A DNA stretch of 64,000 bases from the NCBI RefSeq assembly GCF_003449015.1, contig NZ_QRGD01000007.1, positions 186,001 through 250,000 on the forward strand. Reading direction: 5' to 3'. Made by a program: the position numbers and the translations under genes. Within the stretch, counting starts at the first letter, position 1. Each line of letters begins with the position of its first letter. This stretch comes from Aureibaculum luteum (GTDB lineage Bacteria > Bacteroidota > Bacteroidia > Flavobacteriales > Flavobacteriaceae). The notes under the pieces were generated by a model. The model did not search any database, was not told the origin of the DNA, and saw only the letters and a program-made list of their open reading frames with translations. Shown here piece after piece: positions 4,561 to 9,113 of the stretch.

Positions 4561-4656
4561 TCTGATTATAGGTTTGATTGAAAATGGATTTTTGACTAAA
4601 GTAAGTATTTTTAAAGAATTTATGTTATATTTATACGAACCTAAAAATATTAAGTT

Positions 4657-5121
4657 ATGGCAATCAAAAGTTTTCAAGGCAAAAGATCTCAACCTCAAAA
4701 AGAGGAATTAAAACCAGCTTTAGTGTCTGATTACATGACTACAAAGTTGATTACATTTAAACCAGACCAACCCGTTTCTGAGGTGATAGAATCTTTAATT
4801 CAAAATAGAATTTCAGGTGGACCAGTTGTTAACGAAAATAATGAATTACTCGGTATTATTTCGGAAGGAGATTGTATTAAGCACATTTCAGAAAGCAGAT
4901 ATTATAACATGCCAATGGATAATAATACAGTAGATAAGCACATGGTGAAAAATGTGGATACTATTGATGGAAATATGAATATTTTTGAAGCAGCTGATAT
5001 GTTTTTAAAAGCGAAGCACAGACGTTTTCCTATTGTAGAGAACGGTAAGCTAATAGGACAGATAAGTCAAAAAGACATTCTTATTGCAGCTCTAAAACAA
5101 AAAGGAGAGAACTGGAAGTAA
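4657..5121 (+). CDS. two-CBS-domain protein
   Basis: A 154-residue soluble protein made of a paired CBS (Bateman) module: CBS1 about residues 24-82, with RISGGPVVNENNELLGIISEGD, and CBS2 about 94-148, with HRRFPIVENGKLIGQIS. Such stand-alone modules bind adenine nucleotides and act as cytoplasmic sensors or regulators of partner proteins; the partner cannot be inferred here. The N-terminal 23 residues are basic and Gln-rich. It is divergent from the M28 gene and is followed 26 bp later by a strong terminator that also opens the repeat array. Start ATG at 4657. Confidence 0.9.
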   Translation: MAIKSFQGKRSQPQKEELKPALVSDYMTTKLITFKPDQPVSEVIESLIQNRISGGPVVNENNELLGIISEGDCIKHISESRYYNMPMDNNTVDKHMVKNVDTIDGNMNIFEAADMFLKAKHRRFPIVENGKLIGQISQKDILIAALKQKGENWK

Positions 5122-5140
5122 AACTTTTAAATTTTTAATA

Positions 5141-5393
5141 AAAAAAAGCCCCACGCTTCAGTGGGGCTTTTTTTTCTAACTAAACTATCAACTTAAACTA
5201 ATTCTTATTATTTTTTATATTAAAATTTTTCTAAATCCTTTTTTGAGGATTTCCTTAATCTGGGGAGAAAGGAGATAAAGTTTTAATGGTAAATTTTTTT
5301 TATTTTTATCATAAAATTTCCACTTATTACGACTAAAGCATTGTTTGTTTCGCTGCTTCGGTTATAAAACAATCTATAGCATAAAACTCCCCC
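5141..5393. ncRNA. candidate structured small RNA, unit 1 (type A)
   Basis: About 250 bp from the terminator to CCCCC at 5389-5393. GGGGAG (5262-5267) can pair with CTCCCC (5387-5392), closing a 131-nt domain. Inside it, ATTGTTT can pair with AAACAAT, and AAGC with GCTT. An AAATCCT/AGGATTT hairpin lies just before GGGGAG. The strand is unresolved. Clean T-tracts after the hairpin favour minus-strand transcription (5' end at the G-run, 3' end at the terminator). G-U compatible differences between copies mostly favour plus. No coding capacity was seen. Confidence 0.5.
5148..5175 (+). terminator. bidirectional Rho-independent terminator after the CBS gene
   Basis: A perfect 7 bp stem GCCCCAC (5148-5154) / GTGGGGC (5161-5167) with a 6-nt loop is followed by T8 (5168-5175) and preceded by A7. 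It therefore works in both directions: it ends the CBS gene on the plus strand, and would end unit 1 of the repeat array if that is transcribed from the minus strand. Confidence 0.9.
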
Positions 5394-5612
5394 TTTAAAA
5401 TGAAATTTTTTACTGTAATATTTTTAAATACCTGATTTTTAGTTAGTTTAAGTTGTATTTTTTTTCTTTAGTTATGAATGTGATAATGAAGTTGGGGGTG
5501 AAGTTTATGGTTATTTTTTTGTTGAATTAAGTAAAATTAAGGCAGCGTTATCATTGTATTGGTACATTAGAAAAAGTTAGGAGGTGAAAGGTCTTCAATT
5601 TAGTCAATAAAC

Positions 5613-5866
5613 AAAAAAAGCCTCACTCTTCAGCGGGGCCATTTTTCTCTAACTAAACTATCAACTTAAACTAATTCTTATACTGTTTTTTATATTAAAA
5701 TTTTTCTAAATCCTTTTTTGAGGATATCCTTAATCTGGGGAGAAAGGAGATAAAGTTTTAATGGTAATTTTTTTGTTGTTATCATAAAATTTCCACTTAT
5801 TACGACTAAAGCATTGTTTGTTTCGCTGCTTCGGTTATAAAACAATCTATAGCATAAAACTCCCCC
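5613..5866. ncRNA. candidate structured small RNA, unit 2 (type A)
   Basis: Near-identical copy of unit 1, including the spacer after it. GGGGAG is at 5737-5742 and CTCCCCC at 5860-5866. The terminator stem is weaker than in unit 1 (GCCTCAC opposite GCGGGGC) and its plus-strand side is followed by ATTTTT, while the minus-strand side is followed by T7. Confidence 0.5.
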
Positions 5867-6085
5867 TTTAAAATGAAATTTTTTACTGTAATATTTTTAA
5901 ATGCCTGATTTTTAGTTGGTTTAAGTTGTATTTTTTTTTCTTTAGTTATGAATGTGATAATGAAGTTGGGGATGAAGTTTATGGTTATTTTTTTGTTGAA
6001 TTAAGTAAAATTAAGGAAGCGTTATCATTGTATTGGTACATTAGAAAAAGTTAGAAGGAGAATGGTCATTAATTTATTCTATAAA

Positions 6086-6335
6086 CAAAAAAAGCCTCAC
6101 TCTTCAGCGGGGCCATTTTTCTCTAACTAAACTATCAACTTAAACTAATTCTTATACTGTTTTATATTAAAATTTTTCTAAATCCCTTTTGAGGATTTCC
6201 TTAATCTGGGGAGAAAGGAGATAAAGTTTTAATGGTAATTTTTTTTGTTATCATAAAATTTCCACTTATTACGACTAAAGCATTGTTTGTTTCGCTGCTT
6301 CGATTATAAAACAATCTACAGCATAAAATTCCCCC
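6086..6335. ncRNA. candidate structured small RNA, unit 3 (type A)
   Basis: Third type-A copy. GGGGAG is at 6208-6213 and CCCCC at 6331-6335. The partner of GGGGAG reads TTCCCC here, so the closing pair becomes G-U if the plus strand is the RNA. The spacer after CCCCC differs from units 1 and 2, marking the end of the conserved element. Confidence 0.5.
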
Positions 6336-6538
6336 TTGAGAAAGCGATATTTTTAAATATTATTTTTAACTATTTGGTATAAAGGTGTTAGTGATTGTTT
6401 TTATTTTGAAATTACAGAGGTGTTAGTGGTTTTAATTTTGATGGAAGGTTAATGTTTAGGTAAGATTAAGTGTAGTTATGGTAACAATCGTATTTAATTA
6501 ATTTTTTGAAGAATGATTTATATTATCGTTTTTTAAAC

Positions 6539-6744
6539 AAAAAAACCCCACGCTACGTGGGGTTTATTTCTTCTAACTAAACTATCAACTTAAACTAATT
6601 TTTGTCTTAATTCTGGGGAGAAAGGAGACATGAGTCTATCGGTTAAATTATTGTCTTTTTCATAGCAATTTTCCCGTTTTCGACAGAAGCGTTGTTTGTA
6701 ACGTTGCTTCGAATATGAAACAATTAGCTTTAAGAAATTCCCCC
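6539..6744. ncRNA. candidate structured small RNA, unit 4 (type B)
   Basis: A shorter type-B copy (about 206 bp). The terminator has a 7 bp stem CCCCACG/CGTGGGG (6546-6552, 6556-6562), extended by AAA/TTT. GGGGAG is at 6615-6620 and CCCCC at 6740-6744. The core hairpin reads GAAGC...GCTTC with perfect pairing. On the minus strand the terminator is followed by T7; on the plus strand its T-tract is interrupted (TTTATTT). Confidence 0.5.
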
Positions 6745-6991
6745 TAAAAAAGTAAATAAAATGTTTTAAAAATTATAACAAACTGATAAACAGTATATAA
6801 AAATATAATTAATTTTAGTTGTTATTTTGAAAAGTGATTTTACCACCATTTTTATTTGCTGTCGATTACAAAACAGATTCGTATTTAATTTTTCTTTTGC
6901 ATATTAAATTCATTTCTATTTTGTTACTACATATAATTATTAATTCTGAATTGGGAAGTTTTCTTTACAGGTAAACGGAGGTTTTTTAAAC

Positions 6992-7197
6992 AAAAAAACC
7001 CCACGCTACGTGGGGTTTATTTTTTCTAACTAAACTATCAACTTAAACTAATTTTTGTCTTAATTCTGGGGAGAAAGGAGACATGAGTCTATCGGTTAAA
7101 TTATTGTCTTTTTCATAGCAATTTTCCCGTTTTCGACTGAAGCGTTGTTTATAACGTTGCTTCGAATATGAAACAATTTACTAGGAGAAATTCCCCC
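6992..7197. ncRNA. candidate structured small RNA, unit 5 (type B)
   Basis: Second type-B copy, nearly identical to unit 4 through the element (GGGGAG 7068-7073, CCCCC 7193-7197; terminator stem 6999-7005/7009-7015). The sequence after it (7198-7336) is unrelated to the other spacers, so this is the edge of the array next to the GH18 gene. Confidence 0.5.
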
Positions 7198-7336
7198 TAA
7201 AAAAGGAAAATAATTATTAAATAGATTCTAAGTTGCTGGTATTTAGAGTTATAAACATCTTATTGTTCTTTAGCAAAGATAAATCACACCAACATCATTA
7301 TTGATGTAAAATGTATTGTATATCATACAGTTCAGT

Positions 7337-8769
7337 TTAAGATTTAATTATTTTATAAGTTGCTTTATTACCATTTTCATCCTTAATTTTCAGATAATAA
7401 ACCGCACTTTTAAGTCCTGAAATATCTAGAATCTCTCTGTTAGGGTTGTAACTATTTAATTTTTGTCCTAATAGGTTGTAAATTTCGATACTTGTAATAT
7501 CTATACCATTATTTGAAACTGTAAGGTTGTCTTTAGCAGGGTTGGGATATACTTTTAAGCTCTGTTTTATGAATGAATCATCTACGGCAAGTATGCTACT
7601 AAATTTTGTGTCAATCAAGTCCCACAATTCACTTCTATTACCATCATAATTCAACGCCCATATACCTATGCCCCCTAAGTTTTTACTTAAAGCTAAGCTA
7701 TATTTTAAATCTAAACTTTGCTCATTGTCAGCCCAAACTTGATGCCAGTCACCGGATGACTGCCACGCATAATATGGTGTTTGTGAGCTTGCGTTCCAAA
7801 CATCGCCACCATGATTATCAGATTCTATGGCAGTATCTTGGTAGAAAGTGGAACCTTCATATGATGTTATTGAAGAGCCTGCAGAACTCGAAGAAGTTTT
7901 ATAGTGCTTGCCGTAATAAGGAACTGCAAGTACTATTTTTTCAGGGTAATTAGCTATGGCTTCACCGTAGTCATTAGTAAGCGATTTAGTTACGCTAATA
8001 CCTCCACTGGGATGTGTTAAAGGAGCTACCGCAGCAGTATATGAACTCCACCATTATAGTCATAAGCCATAACTATGAGCTGATCTACAGCTTCGGCCAA
8101 ATCATTAAGTTCCCAACCGCTCCAATTGACAGCGGGTGCGTCAAAAGAAACTTCTTTTCCGGGTAAATTTGAATGAATATAACTTGTTAAATCGGCCATA
8201 AAGGTATTTATAAGAGAACCCCTATCCGCAGAGTCTAAGCCTTCAAAATCAATATTAACACCATCTAATTGGTACGTTGTTATTGTGTTTTTTATAGCAG
8301 TAAATAATGCTGTTTTAGAAGTCGAGTTCGTAAGTAATGTATGAATTTGAGAACTGTTAAAATTAGTAACAGCCATAATAACTTTTACACCTTCAGTATG
8401 TGCTGCATTAATAACATTTGTCCATGGCCAGCCTGAAGGGTTTGTAATTGTACCTGAAGCGGAAGCTTTAAAATCAAATGCCGCGATATGTGTAAGTAAA
8501 TCATATTGAAGGTTGTCATGGGCTCCACTAGAATATTCCCAATAGGGTAGAAATCCAAATATTATTTTAGATAGGTTTGTAGATTTTTTTGTTTGAAGCG
8601 GGATTATATCTGTTCCATTTGGATTGTAAGAAGATTTTAATATTTTAGTATATCCAAATTCTTCACTATGTTGTTGATGGGTTGATTTTCTATCAATTTC
8701 TTGACTAAAACTTAAGGTAAAAACTAGTAATGAAAGGGAAGTTAGTAATGTTTTTTTCATGGGGTTCAT
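7337..8769 (-). pseudogene. GH18 chitinase-like glycosidase with T9SS sorting domain, interrupted by a frameshift
   Basis: Two overlapping frames together encode one secreted GH18 enzyme of about 478 residues. The N-terminal frame (8769 to 8026) has a signal peptide, the GH18 start FGFLPYWEY, and the catalytic motif DGVNIDFEG (residues 169-177, acid E176). It continues to VMAYDYNGG and then stops. The next frame resumes with WSSYTAAVAPL, runs through YYGKHYKT and GGIGIWALNYDG, and ends with a type A Por-secretion sorting domain (VYPNPAKDNLTV to YKIIKS). The shift lies within 8044-8056. A sequencing error, a recent mutation or a real pseudogene would all look like this. The ATG at 8769 overlaps the upstream gene by ATGA; the ATG at 8760 begins the signal peptide more cleanly. 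Confidence 0.85.
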
Positions 8770-9113
8770 TCTTTTTTTATGAGTAAATAATAATTGTTTT
8801 CTAATGGTAAATAACCTTGGTCATATATATAAAAATAGGTGTTTCCAGTTTTTGTAGTGTAGATTGATGTGAAAAAGGTAAAATCAAAATTGTGATTCAA
8901 TAATTTTGCTCGGGTTACTTTTGTTTTACCTGTTGTATTAAGATCTGAAAGTGTTTTGTAATTTTTTCTTAAGCGATTATTGGTGTTTCTAATTAGGTTT
9001 TTACTATCTCTGTTTACTTTATTATTAAAAGCATTACGACAATAATCAGAACAAAACTTTTTATCTTGACGGCCAATAATTTTTGATCCACATTCGGGGC
9101 ATAATTTTTCCAT
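8766..9113 (-). CDS. zinc-ribbon protein of unknown function
   Basis: A 115-residue soluble protein. The N-terminus has a four-cysteine knuckle, CPEC (residues 5-8) and CSDYC (21-25), typical of a small treble-clef or zinc-ribbon domain. A basic middle (NRDSKNLIRNTNNRLRKNY) and a C-terminal beta-rich part follow. No catalytic motif was recognised. It may bind nucleic acid, but that is inference. It overlaps the GH18 start by 4 bp and follows the 9117-9845 gene by 3 bp, so the three form one transcription unit. Confidence 0.7.
   Translation of the reverse strand: MEKLCPECGSKIIGRQDKKFCSDYCRNAFNNKVNRDSKNLIRNTNNRLRKNYKTLSDLNTTGKTKVTRAKLLNHNFDFTFFTSIYTTKTGNTYFYIYDQGYLPLENNYYLLIKKE

Follow-up and report, generated by a model that had tools for sequence, protein, structure and literature searches.

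Between a CBS-domain gene (4657-5121) and position 7337 of the 64,000-nt stretch of Aureibaculum luteum DNA analyzed here (the window), there is no open reading frame of at least 60 amino acids. What does this locus encode, if not protein? A first-pass annotation, made from the sequence alone, had noted the lack of a protein gene and had described five head-to-tail units of two diverged types in its place. Our measurements agree with this description. The array spans 5139-7198, its unit hairpins (family D6) start 472, 474, 451, and 453 bp apart, and the units fall into class A (U1-U3) and class B (U4 and U5). Beyond the gap, the minus strand carries a GH18 chitinase-like gene with a T9SS tail (7337-8820), whose reading frame is broken, either by a frameshift or by a sequencing error, since it is read in two frames overlapping at 8026-8053.

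The array reads best on the minus strand, as five RNAs of 207-256 nt. In this direction, U5 (6992-7198) is the first copy, followed by U4 (6539-6745), U3 (6087-6336), U2 (5613-5867), and finally U1 (5139-5394), which adjoins the CBS gene. All five match the unit covariance model (R2). The earlier annotation had listed hairpin, linker, GGGGAG, and CCCCC in the order of the plus strand. These elements are indeed present there, but the RNA is better read from the other strand, on which CCCCC becomes a 5' GGGGGA, GGGGAG a 3' CTCCCC, and the hairpin a 3' terminator. A terminator scan detected six terminator-like sites in 4600-7600, against 1.3 expected. As three of them lie on each strand (including those of U4 and U5 on the minus strand and those of U1, U4, and U5 on the plus strand), the scan alone leaves the strand undecided. 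By reading, each unit ends on the minus strand in a hairpin followed by a T-run, in line with the idea that every copy has its own terminator. In U5 and U4, the hairpins and T-runs that pass the scan on this strand are at 6996-7018 and 6543-6565, and these hairpins score on the plus strand as well. Upstream of U5 lies the element ACCAGCAACTTA (7229-7240, minus strand), whose CAG ends 37 nt before AGGGGG. The corresponding distance is 36-39 nt in 18 of the 26 units with upstream sequence, suggesting a transcript start near AGGGGG. The hairpin with T-run at the end of each unit and the fixed CAG spacing together led us to prefer the minus strand.

Two further blocks are shared by all units, both given here on the minus strand. 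The C-rich arm TCTCCTTTCTCCCC (7068-7081 in U5) is also found in U1-U4 and is the most conserved block of the unit. The 22-nt 3' linker GTTTAAGTTGATAGTTTAGTTA (7027-7048 in U5) recurs identically at 6574-6595 in U4, 6124-6145 in U3, 5650-5671 in U2, and 5177-5198 in U1.

A covariance model built from 30 unit cores was used to ask how far the units extend beyond this genome. Homologous units were found in 14 of 17 genomes of the genus, with one to five strong matches each (36 strong matches at E of 1.3e-10 or less, and three weak ones at E 0.013-0.099). All 11 genomes that are at least 90% complete contain units, and the three genomes without them are 85-87% complete. Five units each were present in the A. 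luteum genome itself (G000), G009, and G007, and one to three in the others; G014 is counted with three, of which two lie at identical ends of separate contigs and are possibly the same unit. Of 149 genomes sampled from the family, units were matched in 2, both from this genus, and in none of the 147 from other genera (this search and the family-wide search for the small RNA P described below were run under Infernal's stricter filters). The same CBS gene lies beside the units in 13 of the 14 unit-bearing genomes (A. luteum and 12 others), and a cysteine-motif gene (window 8766-9113) is near the units in nine other genomes. In G010, neither gene was found within the sequence stretch examined. 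The recurrence of homologous units in 14 of 17 genomes, in 13 of 14 cases adjacent to the CBS gene, indicates that the array is more than chance, and it bears out the proposal of a conserved structured RNA of about 205-255 nt that has been amplified.

The predicted fold of the unit was examined in three helices, which had been picked by eye from the same units. In these helices, 94.2% of cells pair, compared to 92.3% in shuffles (none of 500 as high). Three pairs, all in GAAGC/GCTTC, changed on both sides, against a shuffled mean of 1.1 (14 of 500 as high). Some of the compensatory changes that the first-pass annotation had asked for in related genomes are thus present, and they lend the unit fold modest support. 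A stem closing the seed loop (AACGG/CCGTT or AGTGG/CCATT) was seen by eye only; it is outside the counted structure, as the MAFFT alignment puts the classes out of register. A TTGTTT/AAACAA helix, which would form a pseudoknot with GAAGC/GCTTC, showed only G-U changes and is not claimed. In Rfam, the whole window gave no match at gathering level. Flavo-1 and 6S, the families that had been suggested for comparison, were not among the 82 Rfam matches with E up to 10, and GibS (RF04182) scored 20.2 bits on the array against a gathering threshold of 115.

Each unit of the array contains a segment that is antisense to a small RNA encoded elsewhere in the genome. In class B, this segment is GGGAAAATTGCTATGAAAAAG (6655-6675 in U4 and 7108-7128 in U5, minus strand), and its reverse complement is carried by a small RNA of about 78 nt, which we call P. 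In the predicted fold of P, a 5' hairpin and a terminator hairpin flank a single-stranded centre with CTTTTTCATAGCAATTTTCCC, and the U4/U5 segment is a perfect 22-nt complement of the predicted unpaired centre. The calculated pairing energy of -33.9 kcal/mol was not reached by any of 1000 dinucleotide shuffles and was the lowest among 1276 segments from the two strands of the window; outside the array, the best value was -26.4 kcal/mol. Pairing of P with U1-U3 was rejected, as 213-264 of 1000 shuffles were as low. The related pattern GGGAAAATTGCTAT occurred in 25 of 80 genomes, compared to a single hit of the reversed pattern in all 80. Its eight copies in the A. luteum genome were found in the array (two), in P genes (three), in a further sRNA-like locus (one), and at other sites (two).

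P is distributed far more widely than the array. A P covariance model (R1) matched 130 of the 149 family genomes; 128 of these belong to other genera, and no array was detected in them. Within the genus, P was found in 17 of 17 genomes at E 0.1, in G015 only at 0.026. For R1, 51 P loci were used out of 61 collected. They were chosen by an exact 20-mer or a near match to it, so that the invariance of that stretch in the resulting alignment (A3) carries no meaning. The P variants reported here were taken from R1 searches of the family and the genus. In A. luteum, two tandem copies precede rnpB (L110:1810-2092, contig C40), in the order dnaJ, P copy 1, P copy 2 (with CTC for CCC), and rnpB. In the family, P lies downstream of dnaJ-like end codons in 22 of 27 readable loci. 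A TAnnTTTG motif was present near the P start in 40 of 51 copies and in none of 26 units (40 nt before each). Among 26 P loci from other genera, ten had the four-U form, 15 had five to seven U, and one had ACUUU; the ten show that the four-U form is not peculiar to Aureibaculum. The P loci that were searched gave no gathering-score match in Rfam, and one P locus searched to E 1 gave nothing near the cut-off.

Several observations concern sequences related to P. With up to two mismatches, AAAATTGCTATGAAAAA had 222 sites in seven genomes, array and P copies included, compared to 160 for the reversed pattern. In A. luteum the counts were 33 and 29, G009 was below its control, and G011 and G012 were above. 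The sites were counted with regard to a possible antisense role of P at the start regions of many genes, and the counts differ in direction between genomes. A paralog, P', carries CAATTTCCC (L354, L356, L357, L362-L364), or CAACTTTCCC in L366. Upstream of several of its copies, TGTAAG...CGAC by eye resembles an ECF-sigma promoter. The gene preceding P' encodes MORN repeats in L439; in L443, another gene has a comparable position. The further sRNA-like locus (L113, L117, L121, L067, L092, L100) combines the 3' linker of the array and GGGAAAATTGCTAT with a different body; next to it in L113, in divergent orientation, is the gene of an ECF sigma factor, followed by a FecR gene. Finally, in intergenic elements of L109, L115, L118, and L045, several TTGCTATGAAA-like sites follow one another on the same strand; these elements are possibly additional RNAs that bind P.

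The partner of class A is a different RNA. The antisense segment of U1 (TCGTAATAAGTGGAAATTTT, 5313-5332, minus strand) and the 20-nt segments of U2 (5786-5805) and U3 (6255-6274) are perfect complements of the predicted hairpin loop 1 of Q, an RNA gene about 155 nt long that is preceded by TATCTTTG or TATATTTG. In A. luteum, Q is divergent from a LytTR response-regulator gene. Loop 1 and U1-U3 pair at a calculated -26.9 kcal/mol, the lowest of 1276 segments in a comparison made without a shuffle control; the next place outside the array is at -17.9 kcal/mol. Q surfaced with the 16-mer AAATTTCCACTTATTA and not with the 15-mer GTGGAAATTTTATGA used earlier, which was confined to the array in G000, G007, and G009 and otherwise had one match each in G037 and G041, from other families of the order. 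Outside the array, the 16-mer has exactly one site in each of G000, G007, G009, G011, and G016, and this site is always in Q (0.033 sites expected from base composition in A. luteum). Class A units are found in exactly these five genomes. When up to two mismatches were allowed, the 16-mer was not above its reversed control (26 versus 41 in A. luteum). DNA searches, which could miss a diverged Q, found homologs at E below 1e-40 in 5 of 17 genomes, all with class A units, and short matches at E 0.003-0.009 in three more. The five genomes may be one clade, in which case Q and class A may represent one event. The second loop of Q contains TTCATAGCAA, the core of the P seed, which is kept in all five genomes, so that this RNA may bind class B units as well (calculated at -17.0 kcal/mol, without a control).

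Is the complementarity maintained across the genus? In 32 of the 36 strong units, we measured the longest Watson-Crick run that can form with a partner loop of the same genome and set it against 200 shuffles; the four units outside this comparison are one of G007, one of G003, and two of G014. Three P-like elements did not pass the partner filter: CAATGGACCC in G013, and CATAGTAATTTTCCC once in G000 and once in G009. In 28 of the 32 units, the run exceeded all 200 shuffles, and the best partner was P for 16 units (14-25 nt), P' for three (20 nt), and Q for nine (18-20 nt). The complementarity is thus kept across relatives in these 28 units and fails in four: G011_1 tied with the best shuffle, and G013_1, G008_1, and G008_2 did not exceed the shuffles. 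Both G008 units are without one T of the seed, and the P of G008 is standard. For Q, the shuffles are no independent test, because Q was found by its complementarity to class A; the independent evidence is its recurrence in five genomes.

The P' cases are the second units of G002, G004, and G005. They are perfectly complementary to this paralog, which has one U fewer than P, and also pair with P over 25 nt if G-U pairs are allowed. P' is found in genomes without a P'-type unit as well. Similarly, unit G014_1, with GAG, matches P copy 2 in its CUC form, which is also present in genomes with GGG units. That copies might be specialised for different targets had been suggested from the array itself, and the complementarity of the class A segment to Q and of the class B segment to P agrees with it.

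These results also bear on the notion that the array is a non-functional satellite or a chance repeat of terminators. Neighbouring units of the same class are 93-98% identical, as after a recent duplication. However, the conservation and synteny of the units over the genus, the two-sided helix changes, and complementarity of 14-25 nt to small RNAs of the same genome in 28 of 32 units all speak against a satellite, which we regard as highly improbable. The preference of the first-pass annotation for a functional RNA over a simple satellite is upheld on these grounds.

We consider it rather probable that the locus consists of anti-sRNA (sponge) genes that are encoded in trans, arranged in tandem, and specialised for different small RNAs. 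Given the complementarity to P and Q, its products probably titrate or inactivate other small RNAs. On the minus strand, each unit would be transcribed between an upstream element and a terminator of its own, with the antisense segment probably presented in a loop. U4 and U5 would pair with the single-stranded centre of P, and U1-U3 with hairpin loop 1 of Q. The pairing would cover these parts and so keep P or Q from their own targets, or lead to their decay. Having five copies would increase the dosage, and with two classes the load would be shared between two small RNAs. Transcription of the units and their pairing in vivo are inferred, as is the direction of control, with the array acting on P and Q and not the other way round.

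The direction of action deserves particular attention, since the roles could be reversed: the array RNAs would then regulate mRNAs through the C-rich sequence CUCCUUUCUCCCC, and P and Q would be their sponges. In class B (13 units, one per genome), conservation was 0.907 in the seed and 0.683 in the rest of the core outside the C-rich arm; in class A (n=5), the values were 1.0 and 0.797. The C-rich block of class B reached 0.967, so that no other part of the units is as well conserved. It resembles the UCCC-type seeds of Firmicutes sRNAs, and clear Q homologs were found only together with class A units, as would be expected for a dedicated antagonist. Against these points, the CCCC end of the C-rich arm and the 5' GGGGA of the same unit are able to pair in 96% of cells, and the occurrence of P in 128 genomes outside the genus without a detected array implies that P did not arise to bind the array. 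We therefore take the array RNAs as the derived antagonists, P being far wider in distribution and class B being antisense to its fixed centre, and judge the reversal of roles to be unlikely. The sponge model nevertheless leaves the C-rich arm, at least as conserved as the seed, and the linker unexplained.

The linker also raises the question whether an array RNA and P or Q might pair for mutual turnover, or assemble into a linker-bound protein complex, with no sponging involved. The 22-nt linker has six exact sites in the A. luteum genome, five in the array and one in the further sRNA-like locus that also carries GGGAAAATTGCTAT (C1:627558-627579). With up to two mismatches, no other site was found in this genome, which suggests a protein site. 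Yet in G002, G004, and G005, where the seed is retained, the linker has diverged, and we think such a turnover or complex function quite unlikely. With sponging as the favored explanation, the array can be compared to known systems.

CrfA of Caulobacter is described as a sponge of four sibling small RNAs, SisA-D, and QrrX as a sponge of the Qrr set (PMC12559287); QrrX, AgvB, and SroC are further bacterial RNA sponges (PMC12559287, PMC8383071). The likeness is that a noncoding RNA pairs with a conserved stretch of one or more small RNAs encoded elsewhere. The array resembles CrfA and QrrX in anatomy, its sponging being putative, and differs from CrfA-type sponges as described there in having up to five terminator-bounded tandem units, with classes matched to different small RNAs. 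FopS/GibS of Bacteroides, which like the host of the array belongs to the Bacteroidota, is presented as a multicopy sRNA family with a shared seed that pairs with mRNA start regions (PMC11697453) and by that account is more like P than like the array. The Rfp small RNAs of Flavobacterium psychrophilum are, like P, conserved flavobacterial sRNAs. Rfp18 is reported to pair by its third stem-loop (PMC9723704), whereas P is predicted to fold into two hairpins; one of the Rfp set could be a P homolog. No paper was found for the string ATAGCAATTTTCCC, and our searches of open-access PMC articles brought up no description of a tandem sponge array.

A broader interpretation is possible, if on balance doubtful: the locus would duplicate and re-target decoys, each class fitting another member of an sRNA superfamily with the seed CUUUUUCAUAGCAAUUUU, and P would be an undescribed, near-universal sRNA hub of the Flavobacteriaceae. 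The array and the small RNAs may even be engaged in an RNA-level arms race, because elements with the same 18-mer lie on IMG/VR contigs. Among these viral contigs, 23 stretches (L444-L466) contain CTTTTTCATAGCAATTTT; by eye, about 15 of the 23 have a following hairpin and T-run, as P does, and some clearly do not.

If our proposal is true, the locus would be a sponge locus built as a tandem array, with units that diverge to follow different small RNAs. The natural seed differences between the unit classes make the code between small RNA and sponge directly testable. Our analysis also brings to light P, a small RNA that 130 of the 149 sampled Flavobacteriaceae genomes contain, in a family where control by small RNAs is little known.
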